Shown here in pieces: positions 16,079-23,118 of a stretch of DNA of 37,901 nucleotides; the stretch's first letter is position 1, and each line of letters opens with the position of its first letter. The stretch comes from Chloroflexota bacterium. Lineage in GTDB: Bacteria > Chloroflexota > Anaerolineae > Anaerolineales > Villigracilaceae. Below the pieces are notes generated by a model that was given only the letters and a program-made list of their open reading frames with translations, ran no database searches and had not been told where the DNA came from. The position numbers and the translations under genes were made by a program. The DNA lies in contig QMIW01000037.1 of NCBI GenBank assembly GCA_024434165.1, positions 1 to 37,901 on the forward strand. The letters run 5' to 3'.

Positions 16079-16915
16079 TCATTGGGTCTTTGCCAGTTCG
16101 GCGTCTATGATCTGGATGAAGTATTCGATGGGGTATGCCCCGCCAAGCCGGTGACCGTTGATGAAGAAGGTCGGTGTGCCGCCCACTGCCGGTTCGCCGG
16201 TGGAGTCGTAGGGCAGGGATGCGGCGTACTCCATGTCCTTCTGAATGAACTCCAGGTATTTGTGGCTGGTCATGCACTCTTCGAATGTTTCCACGTTCAA
16301 ACCGAGGCTCGCGGCGAGTTCGTTGTAGAAACTCTGCTCGAGCACCGCGCCGGACTGGTTGTTCATGCTCTCCTGATTGTCGAACAACAGGTCGTGATAC
16401 TCCCAGTAGGCGTCCTGGTCTCCGGCGCAGAGCGCGGCTTCGGCGCCAGGCATGGCATTCTGGTGGAAGGATAACGGAAAGTTGCGATAGACGAAGCGGA
16501 TTTTATCGGGATAAGCCGCCATGAGCGCATCATACACCTGGACATGCCAGCGATAGCAATATGGACACTGGTAGTCGCTGAATTCGACGATGGTGATGGG
16601 CGCATCCGCCGGACCGATGCTGGGGAAACCTTCGGTTTCGATGTCGTAGATGACGGGCTGGGGAGTGGCGGTGGGGCGCGGCGTGACTTCGATATAAACC
16701 GGTCCCTGGCTGGCGGCGACGCCCGCAGCGGGAGTTCTTCCCCATGCAACATAACCGACCAGCAAGCCAACCGCAAAGGCAAGCACCACCAGCACGGAAT
16801 AGAAATGACTGCGTTTGAAGGTGATGAATTCCTCCGCATCCTGCACGACGGGGAGTTCCTCTTCTACAACCGCTTCTTCAACAACGGGGGGGGATTTTCT
16901 TGTTTTTGTGGGCAT
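16079..16915 (-). CDS. Membrane-anchored DsbA-family thiol-disulfide oxidoreductase
   Basis: The protein has 278 residues. An acidic cytoplasmic N-terminus (1-37) is followed by one transmembrane segment (about 38-59) and a Pro/Thr-rich linker. The catalytic domain begins at PADAPITIVEFSDYQCPYCYRW, with the CPYC motif at 117-120. The cis-Pro loop is in VGGTPTFFING, and the helical insert typical of DsbA-like/thioredoxin_4 proteins lies between. It probably forms or isomerises disulfides on the outer face. TATAAT ends 9 bases before the ATG and there is no Shine-Dalgarno between. It lies at the edge of the redox gene cluster, although in a separate transcript with its own terminator. Confidence 0.9.
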   Translation of the reverse strand: MPTKTRKSPPVVEEAVVEEELPVVQDAEEFITFKRSHFYSVLVVLAFAVGLLVGYVAWGRTPAAGVAASQGPVYIEVTPRPTATPQPVIYDIETEGFPSIGPADAPITIVEFSDYQCPYCYRWHVQVYDALMAAYPDKIRFVYRNFPLSFHQNAMPGAEAALCAGDQDAYWEYHDLLFDNQESMNNQSGAVLEQSFYNELAASLGLNVETFEECMTSHKYLEFIQKDMEYAASLPYDSTGEPAVGGTPTFFINGHRLGGAYPIEYFIQIIDAELAKTQ

Positions 16916-17250: not shown

Positions 17251-17282
17251 AAACGCAGCGCCGCTTGGACCGGCGCTGCGTT
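17248..17282 (-). terminator. Rho-independent terminator of the redox operon (after msrQ)
   Basis: AACGCAGCGCC (17252-17262) and GGCGCTGCGTT (17272-17282) form an 11-bp stem with a 9-base loop. On the minus strand the stem is followed by TTTTTA, so it terminates msrQ transcription; the msrQ stop codon overlaps the stem base. On the plus strand only two T residues follow. Confidence 0.85.
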
Positions 17283-17964
17283 AAGGCGCATCCGCTTTCG
17301 GTTGCTGACTCTTTTTGGGGAACAGGGGCAGGCTGCGGGTCGGGAAGGAGGCGAGATATCTTCGGACGGCGGGAATTCTCACCGCGAGGAAAATCAAAAG
17401 GATGAGTCCGTAAATCAACGGGCGGACGATGTCGCCGGAGAGGGAGAAGAAATCCCCTTTTTTGCTCCAGGCATAATGGAGGACCGCCAGCGGGGCGATG
17501 AGGTAGACCGTCTTGTGCAGGCGCTTCCAGTTTTTGCCGAGGCGGACTTTCCAAACGTCGAACGAGGTGACGGCGAGCGGAATCAGCATGAGGAAGGTGA
17601 GCGTGCCGACGATGATGTATGGTTTCTCGAAGACCGTGCGGAAGATCAGACTCCAGGCGAGACCGTAATCCAAATCCACAAAGATGATGACGTGGACGGC
17701 GGCGTACATGAAGGCGTACAACCCCAGCGTGCGGCGGCGTTTGAGAGGCTCCGCCCATTTGAAGAGGGTGTTGAGCGGCGTGCAAAGCAGGGACAGCATC
17801 AACAGCGTGATGGCGTGCCGCCCGGTGCGCTGTTCGAGTTCCTGGATCGGGTTGATGGAAAAGGAGCCCGTGAGCATTTCAACGGCGATCCATGCCAGCG
17901 CCGACCAGGCGTACAGGTGAACGGCAATTTGAAGGGGGGTGTAGCGGGAGAATATCTTCATCAA
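17281..17964 (-). CDS. msrQ: Heme-binding membrane subunit MsrQ (YedZ family)
   Basis: The protein has 227 residues and about six transmembrane helices. Candidate heme-ligand histidines lie in [39 protein letters not shown] and LAVLHYAW, the arrangement of the ferric-reductase-like domain of YedZ. MsrQ passes electrons from the quinone pool (and/or a flavin donor) across the membrane to MsrP. The C-terminus is basic and proline-rich (FPKKSQQPK). Its start overlaps the msrP stop by 4 bases (ATGA), so the pair is translationally coupled. A strong terminator follows directly. Confidence 0.9.
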
Positions 17965-18941
17965 TAGTTCAGGTTCAAATCCATACCTTCGTACAGATGC
18001 GCGACCTGTTCACCGTAGCCGTTGAACATCAGCGTTTCGCGGCGGGTGAATTCGCCGATGCGCCGCTCGGATGCCTGCGACCAGCGCGGGTGATCCACGT
18101 TGGGATTGACGTTGGCGTAAAAACCGTATTCATTGGGCGCAACGGTGTTCCACAACGTGTTGGGACGCTGGTCGGTCAGTTCGATCTTGACGATGGACTT
18201 GATGGATTTGAAGCCATACTTCCACGGGACGACAAGACGGAGCGGCGCGCCGTTCTGCGGCAGGATGGTCTCGCCGTAGATGCCGGTGGCGATCAGGGTC
18301 AGGTCGTTCATGGCTTCGTCGAGGCGCAGACCTTCCTGGTAGGGCCAGGGATAGAACGGGCTGCCCTGTCCCTTCATTTCTTCGGGACGGTAGACCGTTT
18401 CAAAACGCACGTACTTTGCATCGGACGTCGGTTCGACCATGTTGAGCAGGCTCGCCAGCGGGAAGCCGTTCCACGGGATGACCATGCTCCACGCCTCGAC
18501 ACAACGCAGGCGGTAGATGCGTTCCTCCTGCGGGAAGAGTTTCAAAATGTCTTCGATTCCGAAGGTCCTGGGTTTGTTGACCATGCCGTAGACTTCCACC
18601 GTCCATGGGGAGGTGGTGAAGTTTTTGGAGAGGGGCGCAACCGCTTCCTTGTTGGTGCTGAATTCGTAGTAGTTGTTGTAGTTGGTGATCTCTTCGAAGG
18701 TGTTGGCGGGGTCGCCCAACTCGTCCGTGAATGCGGGGCGGTTCACATCGGGCACGGAGGGATCGTCTGCGGGAGTATCCGTCATGCCGGGCGCGTCCTC
18801 CGGCGAGGACAGACAGGCGGCAAGCGCGGCGCTTCCGGCGATCACACCGGCGGCTTTGATGAAATCGCGCCGTGAGAGATACACGTCCTTCGGCGTGATC
18901 TCGGAGGAACGAACGGGAACAGATTGATACGGGTGGGTCAT
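17961..18941 (-). CDS. msrP: Methionine-sulfoxide reductase catalytic subunit MsrP (Mo-cofactor), Tat lipoprotein
   Basis: The protein has 326 residues from ATG 18941, preferred because AGGAGA lies about 6 bases upstream; ATG 18959 overlaps the preceding stop but lacks such a site. A Tat signal ([10 protein letters not shown], Arg24-Arg25 in this numbering) is followed by GSAALAAC, which also reads as a lipobox. It would therefore be folded with cofactor, exported and possibly lipid-anchored, unlike soluble Gram-negative MsrP. The molybdopterin-ligand Cys is in [12 protein letters not shown] (about 147). It reduces methionine sulfoxide in exported proteins with electrons from MsrQ. It is preceded by a selenocysteine TlpA-like gene in the same operon. 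Confidence 0.92.
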
Positions 18942-18955
18942 CGGGTCTCTCCTCG

Positions 18956-19516
18956 TCATGGCTTCGGGTAAGGCTCTGCCAGCAGCAATTGAATGGCAGC
19001 TTCGGTTTCCTTGTACCTGCCTTCGCCGATATGAATATAACGGATGTGTCCTTCTTTATCAATGAGGTACAACGTGGGCCAGTAACGGTTTTTGTAGGCG
19101 CGCCAGGTTGCGCCGTCGTTATCCTGCGCCACAGGGTATTCGATGCCGTATTCCAGCACCTTCGCTTTGAGGCTGCCCAGGTCTTCTTCGTAACTGAACT
19201 CCGGGTAATGGTTGCCGATGATGACCAGACCCCGGTCGCGGTATTCCTCGTCCCATTCCTTCAACGAAGGAATCACATTCTGGCAGTTAATTCAGCCAAA
19301 CGTCCACATGTCAATGGCGACCACCTTGCCGCGCAAATCGGCGAGGCGGAGGGGCGCATCCACATTCAGCCAGGTATCGTTGGCGAGTTCGGGGGCGGGT
19401 CCGAGGTCCGGCAGGGAGGCGGAGAATGCGGGCATGACAGGCTGTGAGGATGAAGCGTCCGCGGGGGCGGCGCAGGCGGTCAGGAAAAAAATCAGTCCGA
19501 TAAGAATGCGCTTCAT
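18956..19516 (-). CDS. Selenocysteine-containing TlpA/thioredoxin-like lipoprotein (TGA read through as Sec75)
   Basis: I read 18956-19516 as one 186-residue protein. The ATG at 19516 has GAGGT 4-5 bases upstream. It has lipobox LTAC (Cys15), then [17 protein letters not shown], an in-frame TGA (19294-19292), then [13 protein letters not shown]. Redoxins of this TlpA/DipZ-like type read WT(F/Y)xCINC here, so the TGA replaces the first active-site Cys, giving Sec75-Ile-Asn-Cys78. Both flanks are in one frame and form a complete thioredoxin fold; the cis-Pro lies in [19 protein letters not shown]-like hairpin follows 18 bases after the TGA. It begins an operon with msrP and msrQ and probably reduces oxidised residues on the cell surface. 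The alternative is a point-mutated pseudogene or sequencing error (TGC to TGA). No sel genes are in this window. Confidence 0.75.
19255..19294 (-). promoter_or_regulatory. Putative bacterial SECIS element after the in-frame TGA
   Basis: On the minus strand the TGA (19294-19292) is followed by 18 bases and then ATTCCTTC-GTT-GAAGGAAT (19273-19255), a perfect 8-bp stem with a 3-base loop. Known bacterial SECIS elements have the apical stem-loop within a few tens of bases of the UGA and a G among the first loop bases; both hold here. The hairpin lies inside coding sequence, as bacterial SECIS elements must. Confidence 0.65.
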
Positions 19517-19658: not shown

Positions 19659-20879
19659 TTACGGGATGTAAAACGTGAAGCGGCTGCCGCGTCCCGCTTC
19701 GCTCTCGACCCGGAGACTGCCCCCGTGCGCCTGAACGATGCCGCGCGAAATGGCGAGACCCAGCCCGGCTCCGCCGGTGGCGCGGCTGCGGGATTTTTCC
19801 CCGCGATAGAAGCCATCGAAGATGTGCGGAAGGTCTTCAGCGCGGATGCCTTCGCCCGTGTCGGAGACGGTCACTTCGACGCCGGAGTTGGTGCGCCGCG
19901 CCTCGACCCTGACCTCCCCTTGAGCGGGTGTGTGCCGAATGGCGTTGTTGATGAGGTTGTTGAGCACACGCCCGATGCGGCGGGTATCCATGTGGACGGG
20001 GTCAACGTCCGCATCCACACTGCCCGCCAGTTTCACGTTCTGGCGCGAGGCGAGTTCCGCAAAGGATTCGAGCGTATCGGAGATGAGGTCGGCAAGCGAT
20101 GAGTTTGCGCGTTCCAGTTGAAAGCCGCCCGCGTTCAACTGCGCCATTTGGAAGAGGTCGTCAATCAGCGCGGAAAGCGAGCGCACATCGCGCTGGGCGG
20201 TGCTCAGGTAACGCTTGATGGTGGCGGGGTCGTCCACCATGCCGTCTTCGAGCGCTTCGAGGATGGCGCGGATGGAGGCGAGCGGAGTTTGCAGGTCGTG
20301 CCCGACCCAGGCGATGAGATTCGCGCGCATTTTTTCGAGTTCGCGCTGTCTGGCGTCGGCGGTTTCGAGCTGCTCCGCCATCAAGTTGAAGGTCTGCGCA
20401 AGCGCGGCGACCTCATCGCGCCCGTGCACAGGAACGCGCGTTTTCAAATCGCCCTGCGCCAGTCTTTCCGCCGCGCCCTTCAACTGGTTGACGCGGTCGG
20501 TGATGGTGGACGAGAGGAAATATCCCAGCGCCATCGCCATGCCGCCTGCGAACACAAGCAGGACGATCGCCAGAAGCAGGTCGTGCTGGCTGGCGAACAT
20601 CATCTGCGCCGAGAACCAGACGTTGAAAAAGGTCAGCAGGCTGGACAGGGCGTAACCGCCCAAAAGAGACCAGCGCAGCGCCGGCGAGAGGGACATCCAG
20701 CCGAGGCGGTAGGCAAGGTAGCCCGCCAGCGCCGAGACCAATGCCGTGACGCCGAGGAAGAGCGCCATCAAGCCCAGTTCGTACATCGGCGGCGCCATCA
20801 TCATGGCGAAGATGGCAAGCGAGACGATGAAGATGAGCAGGATGCCTGCGATAAAACGAAGAATGGCGGATGATTTCAT
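19659..20879 (-). CDS. Sensor histidine kinase (HAMP-HisKA-HATPase)
   Basis: The protein has 406 residues from ATG 20879, which overlaps the regulator stop codon (ATGA). Four transmembrane segments lie within about residues 7-123. A HAMP-type linker (ITDRVNQLKGAAERLAQGDLKTRV) follows. The HisKA motif is VGHDLQTPLASIRA with His194. The ATPase has NNLINNAIRHTP (N box), VSDTGEGI (G1) and GGAGLGLAISRGIVQAHGG (G2). There is almost no extracytoplasmic domain, so it probably senses within the membrane, for example redox or envelope stress. It is coupled to the OmpR-type regulator and lies between two redox operons. Confidence 0.95.
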   Translation of the reverse strand: MKSSAILRFIAGILLIFIVSLAIFAMMMAPPMYELGLMALFLGVTALVSALAGYLAYRLGWMSLSPALRWSLLGGYALSSLLTFFNVWFSAQMMFASQHDLLLAIVLLVFAGGMAMALGYFLSSTITDRVNQLKGAAERLAQGDLKTRVPVHGRDEVAALAQTFNLMAEQLETADARQRELEKMRANLIAWVGHDLQTPLASIRAILEALEDGMVDDPATIKRYLSTAQRDVRSLSALIDDLFQMAQLNAGGFQLERANSSLADLISDTLESFAELASRQNVKLAGSVDADVDPVHMDTRRIGRVLNNLINNAIRHTPAQGEVRVEARRTNSGVEVTVSDTGEGIRAEDLPHIFDGFYRGEKSRSRATGGAGLGLAISRGIVQAHGGSLRVESEAGRGSRFTFYIP

Positions 20880-21568
20880 GGCTCGAATTTGTATCCCACG
20901 CCCCATACGGTCAAAAGGCGGACCGGCGATGACGGGTCCCTTTCGATCTTCTCGCGCAGGCGGCGGACGTGCACCGTCACCGTGCCGGGGTCAATGTATT
21001 CCGCGCCGCCCCACACACGCTCGAGCAATTGCTCGCGGGTGAAGACCTGTCTGGGGTGCCGCGCCAGCAGGTAGAGCAGGTCGAATTCCTTTGCGGTCAA
21101 CTCGATCTGCGATTCGCGCACCGTCACCGCGCGCGAAACCGGGCTGATGTGAATATCTCCAAGCGACAAGTCGCGCTCAGACTCTGCCCCGGTTTGTTCC
21201 CGCCCGGTGCGCCTGAGCACCGCCCGAACACGGCTGACCAACTCCTGCGGGCTGAACGGCTTGACCACGTAATCGTCCGCACCCATCTCCAGCCCGGCGA
21301 TGCGGTCAATTTCCTCGCGCCGCGCCGTAACCATGATGATGGGCACGTTCGAGCGGTCTCTCAGCCAGCGCGTCAGGGATAGACCGTCAATTTCAGGCAG
21401 CATCAAATCCAGGATGACGAAGTCGGGCATCTGCTTTTCCAGAATTGCCATCGCTTGTTTGCCGTCCGCGGCGGCTTGCACCTGAAACCCGGCGCGTTTT
21501 AAATAGAGGCAGACCACCTCCGCCAGGCTGGGCTCGTCCTCCACTACAAGGATGCGCGCATCGTTCAT
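20876..21568 (-). CDS. OmpR/PhoB-family response regulator
   Basis: The protein has 230 residues from ATG 21568. The receiver domain has the acidic pair in VVEDEPS, phosphoacceptor Asp54 in VILDLMLPEIDG, and Lys in YVVKPFSPQEL. The C-terminal winged helix ends in GTVTVHVRRLREKIERDP and VWGVGYKFEP, as in PhoB/OmpR. It would bind tandem 11-bp half-sites. Such repeats (TTTCGTAAG) lie before the Sec-TlpA operon and before the divergent TlpA-like/ccdA operon, making these the likely targets. TATGAT (21581-21576) lies 7 bases before the ATG with no Shine-Dalgarno, suggesting a leaderless transcript. Confidence 0.95.
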   Translation of the reverse strand: MNDARILVVEDEPSLAEVVCLYLKRAGFQVQAAADGKQAMAILEKQMPDFVILDLMLPEIDGLSLTRWLRDRSNVPIIMVTARREEIDRIAGLEMGADDYVVKPFSPQELVSRVRAVLRRTGREQTGAESERDLSLGDIHISPVSRAVTVRESQIELTAKEFDLLYLLARHPRQVFTREQLLERVWGGAEYIDPGTVTVHVRRLREKIERDPSSPVRLLTVWGVGYKFEP

Positions 21569-21581
21569 GCGGAAAATCATA
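21569..21581 (-). promoter_or_regulatory. -10 box (TATGAT) for the response-regulator operon
   Basis: On the minus strand TATGAT (21581-21576) is 7 bases (TTTCCGC) before the ATG at 21568. The divergent operator for the TlpA-like operon lies about 50 bases further upstream, so the regulator could also act on its own promoter. Confidence 0.4.
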
Positions 21582-21621
21582 CTTGATTCCCGGTGGAAAG
21601 TCATTAACAAAAAATTACGCC

Positions 21622-21709: not shown

Positions 21710-22369
21710 ATGAAAACAAGAATCTTATTTTTCAACTTTGCCCTGATCATGGCTTTGCTCGTCGCAGCCTGCGGCGGGGCAGCAGCCGAAGAGGCGATGA
21801 TGGATAAGCCCGCAACAGAAGAATCCATGATGGACAAGCCCACCGAGGAAGCCATGATGGACAACTCCACTGAAGAAGCCATGATGGACAAGCCCACCGA
21901 GGAAGCCATGATGGAAAGCCCTGCCTGGTTCAGCGCCGCGCTGACCGATGTCCGCACCGGGCAAACCTTCACGGTTCAGGATTTCGACGGCAAGGTGGTT
22001 TTGGTGGAGGCAATGGCTGTCTGGTGCTCGAAATGTCTGAGCCAGCAGAAGCAGGTCAAGGAATTGCGCGGTCTGCTCGGCGGGCGCGACGACCTTATCG
22101 TCATCGGCTTGGATATTGACCCGAACGAAGACGCCTCCCAACTTAAGGATTTCGCGGAAACCCAGGGCTTCGACTGGCTGTACGCCGTCTCGCCGGCGGA
22201 GGCGTCGAGCGAACTCTCGTCGCTGTATGGAAACCAGTTCCTCAACCCGCCCTCCACACCCATGCTGGTCGTTGACCGTCACGGCAAGGTTCATCCGCTG
22301 CCCTTTGGCATCAAGAGCGCAGAGGAACTCCTGGAATTCATCCAGCCGTTTCTCGACGAAACCATGTAA
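21710..22369 (+). CDS. TlpA-like thiol-disulfide lipoprotein with Met-rich acidic repeats
   Basis: The protein has 219 residues. Lipobox LVAAC gives lipidated Cys21. Residues 27-71 are five imperfect copies of EEAMMDKPT, which tether a thioredoxin domain from about 73 on. The domain has the redox motif WCSKC (Cys106, Cys109), the strand VIGLDIDPNED, and cis-Pro in NPPSTPMLVVDRHGK. It reduces or exchanges disulfides on the outer face and is probably re-reduced by the CcdA-type protein encoded 77 bases downstream. The methionine/acid-rich repeat may bind copper or simply act as a spacer. AAAGGAGA just upstream supports the start. The promoter carries the 22-bp-spaced operator shared with the Sec-TlpA operon. 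Confidence 0.9.
   Translation: MKTRILFFNFALIMALLVAACGGAAAEEAMMDKPATEESMMDKPTEEAMMDNSTEEAMMDKPTEEAMMESPAWFSAALTDVRTGQTFTVQDFDGKVVLVEAMAVWCSKCLSQQKQVKELRGLLGGRDDLIVIGLDIDPNEDASQLKDFAETQGFDWLYAVSPAEASSELSSLYGNQFLNPPSTPMLVVDRHGKVHPLPFGIKSAEELLEFIQPFLDETM
21788..21922 (+). repeat. Tandem 27-bp coding repeat (EEAMMDKPT)
   Basis: Five units of 27 bases (the first 30) encode EEAMMDKPAT, EESMMDKPT, EEAMMDNST, EEAMMDKPT, EEAMMESPA. Synonymous differences between units show the repeat is not brand new. It forms the flexible linker of the lipoprotein. Confidence 0.9.
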
Positions 22370-22446: not shown

Positions 22447-23118
22447 ATGGAAACCATCCTCACCTCCCTTTCCCTCGGCTTGCTCGCCACCACCAGCCCA
22501 TGCGTCCTGCCGTTGTATCCCGGCTTTCTCGCCTACCTCAGCAGCGGAGGGGCAAACCTGCAAAACCCGCGCATCCGCTGCCTGCTCGGTTTCTTCGTGC
22601 TGGCGGGCGTATTGACGATGATGCTCGCATTGGGCGCTGTCATCGCGCTTTTATCCATATCCATTGGGCGGGCGCTGGCGCTGGTCATCCCCATTGCCGA
22701 CCTCATCATCATTCTGTCCGGCGTGTTATTGCTGTTGAACATCAACCCCTTCAAGAAACTTCCCCAAATCCAAACGCCGTTGTTCTCGCATCCGTTTGCG
22801 AACGCGTTCCTTTACGGCTTGCTATATGGACCCATCGCACTGCCATGTTCGGGTCCGCTGGTGGTGAGCATCTTCGCGCTTTCGCTCACCGTCGCCGACG
22901 CGCTTGGGAAGTTGAGCGTCTTCCTCTGGTTCGGTTTGGGGTTCGGCATCCCGCTCCTGCTGTTATCCTTCCTCTCCGGGGCTGCCCAACGCTGGATCAC
23001 GCGCCAATTCGCAGTGCGGGCGCGTTCGATCAACCTCGTCAGCGGTCTGCTGTTATTGGGCGTCGGGGCTTACGATCTCTCCGTCAACTGGAGTTTGATT
23101 GTCTCGTATCTTGCGTGA
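22447..23118 (+). CDS. CcdA-type transmembrane electron-transfer protein
   Basis: The protein has 223 residues and six transmembrane helices. The two redox cysteines are in TTSPCVLPLYPG (Cys19) and ALPCSGPLVV (Cys134), the hallmark PC..P motifs of the CcdA/DsbD-beta family. It carries reducing equivalents from cytoplasmic thioredoxin to extracytoplasmic thiol proteins. The TlpA-like lipoprotein encoded just upstream is the natural partner, and the Sec-TlpA protein is a further candidate. No cytochrome c assembly genes are nearby, so a general thiol-reduction role is favoured over heme ligation. Confidence 0.9.
   Translation: METILTSLSLGLLATTSPCVLPLYPGFLAYLSSGGANLQNPRIRCLLGFFVLAGVLTMMLALGAVIALLSISIGRALALVIPIADLIIILSGVLLLLNINPFKKLPQIQTPLFSHPFANAFLYGLLYGPIALPCSGPLVVSIFALSLTVADALGKLSVFLWFGLGFGIPLLLLSFLSGAAQRWITRQFAVRARSINLVSGLLLLGVGAYDLSVNWSLIVSYLA

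Follow-up and report, generated by a model that had tools for sequence, protein, structure and literature searches.

On the minus strand of a 37,901-nucleotide contig of a Chloroflexota bacterium (the whole of this stretch is referred to here as the window), a redoxin-like reading frame runs from an ATG at 19516 to a TGA stop at 18958-18956 and contains a single internal TGA at 19294-19292, i.e., at residue 75. This raises the question whether the codon is translated as selenocysteine (Sec), or whether the gene is decayed, misread, or read through by other means, and which function its product may serve next to its neighbors. An annotation that reads the TGA as a stop would break the gene in two; the two same-frame fragments described in the initial annotation, split by the TGA alone, proved to be a single frame of 186 residues that is otherwise open. 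The encoded protein starts with MKRILIG, followed by the lipobox LTAC, the active site WTFG-U-INC, and a full thioredoxin-like domain, and its ATG is preceded by GAGGTGA, which resembles a ribosome-binding site. The lipobox suggests, by its sequence, that the selenoprotein is a membrane-anchored lipoprotein, and a crude lipobox pattern occurs in 54 of 96 distinct homologue genes. The WPT loop at residues 146-148 is presumably in cis configuration, as is usual for the thioredoxin fold. Taken together, the Chloroflexota gene at 19516-18956 is considered a genuine selenoprotein gene with a probability of roughly 95%, and its TGA codon, SECIS, Sec machinery, domain family, and operon are established at the level of the genome sequence. 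The features of the locus are collected in Table 1.

Table 1. Features of the selenoprotein locus and its neighborhood in the window.
Feature	Position	Strand	Basis or remark
Selenoprotein gene, predicted thioredoxin-fold lipoprotein, Sec at residue 75, own TGA stop	18956..19516	-	186 residues
In-frame TGA as Sec, first residue of the UINC active site	19292..19294	-	TGA, TGC, or TGT only, in 110 loci including the window's own
TGC of the second (resolving) Cys, residue 78 of UINC	19283..19285	-	Invariant in 32 alignment rows
SECIS hairpin, 8-bp stem ATTCCTTC/GAAGGAAT, loop GTT, starting 18 nt after the TGA	19255..19273	-	
N-terminal signal with lipobox LTAC (Cys 15)	19472..19516	-	Sequence; Cys 15 in at least 90% of 32 rows
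WPT, residues 146-148, presumed cis-Pro loop of the thioredoxin fold	19073..19081	-	W146 and P147 invariant in 32 rows
msrP, molybdopterin methionine sulfoxide reductase catalytic subunit	17961..18959	-	NF003767, 463 bits (cut-off 207)
msrQ, haem-binding membrane subunit	17281..17964	-	NF003831, 173.5 bits (cut-off 130); PF01794
DsbA-like thioredoxin protein, CPYC with Cys	16079..16915	-	Under the cut-off of the Rcas_1661 (seleno)lipoprotein family
Sensor histidine kinase, upstream	19659..20906	-	
Response regulator, OmpR type, upstream	20876..21610	-	
Second redoxin lipoprotein, CSKC, divergent	21710..22369	+	PF08534; matches in 24 of 110 loci
Divergent gene for a CcdA-like membrane electron carrier (DsbD_TM), a candidate reductant	22447..23118	+	PF02683; matches in 24 of 110 loci

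Codon 75 among relatives and selection on the frame

Homologues were collected by two routes, namely, a class search of 396 genomes, which gave matches in 358 and from which the best 30 were retained as loci (the window's gene included), and a scan of the GTDB contig collection, from which the best 80 of 103 relatives were retained; both codon-checked sets lean to close relatives. The titles of the 80 contig relatives name Chloroflexota or its subgroups, with Brevefilum taken to lie within Chloroflexota. Across the 110 loci, window included, among which a species may appear twice by way of the two routes, the codon aligned with residue 75 is TGA in 62, TGC in 29, and TGT in 19; after removal of identical genes, 96 distinct genes remain (the window's among them), 54 with TGA and 42 with a Cys codon. 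This agrees with the initial annotation, which had placed the TGA of the motif WTFG-TGA-INC on the first catalytic Cys of a redoxin and had named other substitutions in relatives as evidence to the contrary; none occurs in the 110 loci. The frame that follows this codon extends for 107-114 codons in 89 of the 96 genes and for 181-191 codons in the other seven.

A lone TGA within an otherwise normal frame looks at first like a nonsense mutation in a decaying or broken redoxin gene, and the relatives include one case in point: the Cys gene L120 (317-844) has an in-frame stop at the Trp codon that lies four positions ahead of the catalytic Cys, which reflects either a broken copy or a misread base, so that broken or misread copies do exist (L120 was kept in the Cys counts of the codon survey, the distinct-gene tests, and the SECIS tests). 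Decay of the window's gene is nevertheless extremely unlikely, as 54 distinct genes have a TGA at this one position, the SECIS covaries (see below), and dN/dS over codons +14 to +105 is 0.04-0.11 in nine relative pairs (eight Sec/Sec, one Sec/Cys). Upstream of the TGA, eight of the pairs have a dN/dS between 0 and 0.13, and L088/L119, the ninth, is saturated. The low ratios past the TGA indicate that the downstream part is translated and matters, and, as had been argued earlier, no decay is seen there. The pseudogene reading was rejected, since relatives with the TGA have kept the frame past it.

An error of sequencing or assembly, with TGC or TGT as the true codon, would be in line with the Cys codons found in 42 of the 96 distinct genes, and the codons compared were read from assemblies. 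However, the TGA is also present in other assemblies, including that of the 94% identical L047, and the stem described below goes with the TGA rather than with the Cys codons. The recurrence of the TGA across separate assemblies makes such an error very unlikely.

In a tree of the 96 proteins, 19 Sec/Cys changes were counted, versus 31 with shuffled labels. The bootstrap 5-95% range of this count is 17-19, the protein tree bootstrap having yet to settle, and at least nine changes are forced by well-supported branches. As read from this tree, Sec and Cys interchange repeatedly in the redoxin family.

The SECIS hairpin

A perfect 8-bp stem with a GUU loop, 18 bases past the TGA, had been claimed for this gene, and it was found as described at 19273-19255. 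RNA folding, which had been proposed along with it, gave -15.8 kcal/mol over 56 nt (z = -2.37), with 3 of 200 shuffles as good. For the window gene, with its own amino acids and the codon use of the family, eight pairs arise by synonymous choice alone with p = 0.015, and a synonymous-choice p < 0.05 was obtained for 50 of the 54 Sec genes versus 5 of the 42 Cys genes. At fixed columns, 7.57 of 8 pairs form on average in Sec genes, versus 4.71 when their codons are redrawn among synonyms, and 4.40 in Cys genes, versus 3.80 under the same redrawing; the complete 8-pair stem is present in 44 of 54 Sec genes and in 2 of 42 Cys genes. When a stem was sought anywhere past the codon in distinct 60-base stretches, eight pairs were found in 44 of the 52 from Sec genes and in 5 of the 42 from Cys genes, a result less clean than that at fixed columns, with three of the five Cys stems sitting elsewhere.

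Pairing was further counted in the contig-collection genes plus the window, which comprise 41 of the 54 Sec genes and 34 of the 42 Cys genes (L035 and L040 excluded). Among these Sec genes, 96.0% of the stem cells pair, a value that no shuffle of 500 attained, and sliding the partner by 1-3 columns lowers pairing to 47-63%; in the Cys genes, 55.5% of the stem cells pair. Both sides have changed in 23 cells of the 41 Sec genes (0 of 500 shuffles as high), the types of change being T-A to C-G, C-G to T-A, and C-G to G-C, and the covariation score was reached by none of 500 shuffles. Two of the five covariation measures on the same 41 genes are not outstanding, namely, the number of pairs with a change on both sides (three, equalled by 35 of 500 shuffles) and the number of further pair types (five, versus a shuffled mean of 5.9).

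Of the 54 Sec genes, 41 have the loop GTT and 8 have GGT; among the 42 Cys genes, GTT occurs in 4. At codon +11, 36 Sec genes encode Arg, 34 of them by AGG, and at this codon of the Cys genes AGG is outside the four commonest codons. The SECIS codons show zero synonymous differences in eight of nine relative pairs, with dS further downstream ranging from 0.2 to 2.2. Overall, the SECIS covaries, tracks the TGA, and is conserved beyond codon needs. At gathering scores, Rfam reported one tRNA and nothing else in the window, and an RNA model of the hairpin (coding columns included) gave no match elsewhere in the genome up to E = 1.

Several genes depart from this pattern. L083 (3274-3333) and L101 (4217-4276) contain the active-site TGA without the usual stem, selA and selB being present. 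These two genes are DNA-identical from codons +7 to +13 and differ at about half of the synonymous sites further downstream, so a different hairpin is possible there. L035 and L040 have an enlarged loop, and L071 has a weakened stem of 6 pairs. The Cys genes L067 (4229-4288) and L068 (4226-4285), in turn, have an intact 8-bp stem, with the loop CTT in L067 and GTT in L068, which is sister to the Sec gene L023. Their stems are likely fossil SECIS elements after a recent Sec-to-Cys change, and where such relics stand, they point to Sec loss as the direction of change. L068, with TGT and an intact stem, was also considered as a genome that has lost selB, a reading that was dropped: selA was found there, and the absence of selB may be an assembly gap.

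Sec machinery in the source genome and in relatives

The source genome (4.4 Mb, 173 contigs, 98% complete) contains all four genes for which the initial annotation had proposed a search, each over its cut-off, i.e., selA on C114 (544 bits, cut-off 268), selB on C98 (327.6 bits, cut-off 242), selD on C50 (368 bits, cut-off 125), and tRNA-Sec (selC) on C49 (67 bits, gathering 47; ARAGORN anticodon tca). Its selD (L128) carries an in-frame TGA of its own, followed by the hairpin GACGCAG-GUU-CUGCGUC, which is an internal sign of Sec use with a GUU-loop SECIS in this genome.

The existence of L083 and L101, with TGA but without the usual stem, would fit with readthrough of the TGA by a near-cognate or reassigned tRNA that inserts Cys or Trp, in a process that does not involve selenium. 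For the window's gene this is highly improbable, as the Sec machinery is complete, the hairpin is retained at synonymous sites, Cys codons are the sole replacement among the 110 loci, and TGA is apparently an ordinary stop in this genome, to judge by the gene's own end at 18956. Incorporation of Sec is the preferred reading of codon 75.

A census of selB covered 60 genomes picked from the loci, in which the same species may enter by two routes. Of the 33 Sec genomes, 32 have selB over the cut-off, as do 21 of the 27 Cys genomes; the expected separation of the two groups by selB is thus weak, because most Cys genomes retain Sec machinery. Among the seven genomes with no selB over the cut-off, selA is present in G153, G278, G398, and G405, and is under the cut-off as well in G412, G414, and G315, the last of which (78% complete) is the sole one of the 33 Sec genomes with no selB over the cut-off. 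G278 is large and 96% complete, and holds selA and a TGA gene (L139) of the second Sec family described below, with selB not over the cut-off.

Relation to known proteins, operon context, and possible role

The gene product had been described as a TlpA-like redoxin lipoprotein. This description is refined in that the nearest solved structure is the C-terminal thioredoxin domain of M. tuberculosis DipZ, not TlpA. Both PF00578 (AhpC-TSA; 52.9 bits, gathering score 26) and PF08534 (Redoxin; 37.3 bits, gathering score 26.6) match the selenoprotein, which together with UINC places it among the UxxC redoxins, and Thioredoxin_8 is also over its cut-off. The closest solved chains by sequence are those of DipZ, 2hyx and 5cyy (E 7e-42), followed by SOQ1 and NHLRC2. 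In a predicted model with Sec read as Cys (32 rows, pLDDT 87.3, pTM 0.78), the fold is thioredoxin-like and residue 75 immediately precedes helix 76-95. All six of the best Foldseek matches of this model come from DipZ; among them, 5cyy_D ranks first, at 4.2 Å over 160 columns, and 2hyx_A, with 47% identity, superposes at 1.0 Å over 146.

The selenoprotein and the DipZ C-terminal domain (2hyx, 5cyy) are homologous, with the CINC motif and the WP loop aligned. DipZ, however, has Cys and further domains, namely, a fused CcdA-type membrane domain and an extra C-terminal domain, whereas the protein described here is one short Sec lipoprotein domain of 186 residues, with a separate CcdA-like gene nearby. 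NHLRC2 and SOQ1 (6gc1, 7djj) have a related thioredoxin domain, but the selenoprotein is without NHL repeats and is a predicted extracytoplasmic lipoprotein. The ResA/TlpA family belongs to the same superfamily and likely shares the chemistry too, but the ResA model NF002854 gives 58.2 bits, far under its cut-off of 170.

A second Sec family was observed in Anaerolineae-class genomes (L131-L142), consisting of longer NHLRC2/SOQ1-like thioredoxin proteins with TGA at the equivalent residue and the motif WT[YF][CG]-U-[IMV]NC, or FTYG in two of them. TGA was found in 12 of 14 fetched regions, which had been picked for a stop inside the class-search match, and SECIS-like hairpins folded in 5 of the 12. 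L131, the sole domain-checked member, has NHL repeats and matches SOQ1 at E 1e-114 and NHLRC2 at E 7e-112. A further DipZ-like redoxin with TGA, L143 (G069 C210), is 47% identical and has the hairpin TTCCCGC-GTT-GCGGGAA; the second family, too, is represented in its genome, by the longer TGA gene L138.

Both the MsrP and the MsrQ models are over their cut-offs in the genes that follow the selenoprotein gene, and the msrPQ operon in which it sits was absent from the initial annotation. The selenoprotein stop overlaps the first ATG of msrP in the sequence ATGA, which suggests coupled translation. Among 95 testable genes, the window's included, msrP lies next downstream on the same strand in 56 (32 of 54 Sec, 24 of 41 Cys), its matches beginning 3-261 bases past the selenoprotein stop; a match had to reach E 1e-10 on the same strand, no more than 1,300 bases from the stop, and L038 was dropped, its contig being too short. 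In the other 39 of the 95 no msrP is found next door, so the link to MsrPQ is not universal. The counts for other neighbors are lower bounds because the flanks vary in length, and comprise msrQ matches in 54 of 96 distinct loci, ORF clusters taken as the kinase and the regulator (by length, example, and matches) in 53 and 48 loci, and the CcdA neighbor in just 24 of 110 loci, many of which have short flanks. Neither of two thioredoxin-related neighbors was found to contain Sec: the DsbA-like protein, which scores 119.7 bits against the Rcas_1661 (seleno)lipoprotein family (cut-off 190), has Cys codons in all 29 loci with a match, and the second redoxin lipoprotein has Cys in 24 of 24.

For the selenoprotein, it is proposed that SelB and Sec-tRNA(UCA), guided by the hairpin 18 nt downstream, would recode the UGA at codon 75 and insert Sec as the attacking residue of the UINC site in a thioredoxin-fold lipoprotein. 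The protein would then be exported and lipid-anchored, Sec would attack the oxidised substrate, Cys 78 would resolve the intermediate, and re-reduction may occur via a CcdA-type carrier or the second redoxin, with the CcdA-type membrane carrier plausibly being the electron source. Most likely, the protein acts as an extracytoplasmic disulfide/selenenylsulfide reductase on the outer side of the membrane, where it would contribute, beside MsrPQ, to the repair of oxidative damage in the envelope, the latter role being a best guess made because of the shared operon.

The odds are about even between a role linked to MsrPQ and broader work as an envelope reductase. MsrP, a molybdoenzyme with MsrQ as its partner, is not known to require a thiol donor, and msrPQ in E. 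coli is linked to the HprRS two-component system. A job apart from MsrPQ, i.e., that of a real selenoprotein acting as a general envelope disulfide reductase in folding or cytochrome maturation and placed in the operon for co-regulation, has a little less than an even chance; it is in line with this apparent dispensability of a thiol donor and with the 39 testable genes without adjacent msrP, but less so with msrP lying directly next in 56 of 95, msrQ matches in 54 of 96 distinct loci, and a start/stop overlap that suggests coupled translation. It is possible, if rather doubtful, that the Sec redoxin is a dedicated MsrPQ partner in selenium-dependent envelope repair, under one redox-sensing two-component system. 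Such a partner might reduce disulfides or sulfenic acids on the oxidised clients of MsrPQ, or it might provide an alternative electron feed into Met-sulfoxide repair. In E. coli, MsrPQ is triggered by reactive chlorine species, according to the abstract of PMC9302797.

Selenoproteins of this kind are already known. UxxC Prx-like, thiol-disulfide isomerase-like, and redoxin-family selenoproteins (PF00578, cd02966, PF08534) are listed in Table 1 of a 2026 review (PMC13188914), UxxC redox selenoproteins are given in the Sargasso Sea, 2006, and GOS surveys (PMC1088965, PMC1794560, PMC2398784), and a table of the 2006 survey (PMC1794560) counts 3 selenoproteins for the Chloroflexota phylum. Compared by description with those in the review (PMC13188914), the present protein is alike in its AhpC-TSA/Redoxin match, in Sec as the first residue of UxxC, and in having known Cys homologues, but differs in being a DipZ-like UINC lipoprotein of Chloroflexota, often in an msrPQ operon. 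The main text of PMC13188914 does not contain 'Chloroflex', and a term search of the main text of the deep-Sep paper (PMC12013277) returned neither 'Chloroflex' nor 'redoxin'. Among the papers listed in literature searches on selenocysteine and selenoproteins, which left out most subscription papers, no title or abstract beginning describes the family. What is new is a DipZ-like UxxC member, found here in Chloroflexota.

The finding adds a selenoprotein lineage to the Chloroflexota and ties selenium to the msrPQ operon. With many Sec/Cys swaps inside one well-sampled clade, the family constitutes a natural experiment, and since two Cys genes retain SECIS stems, the individual steps by which Sec is lost are directly readable.
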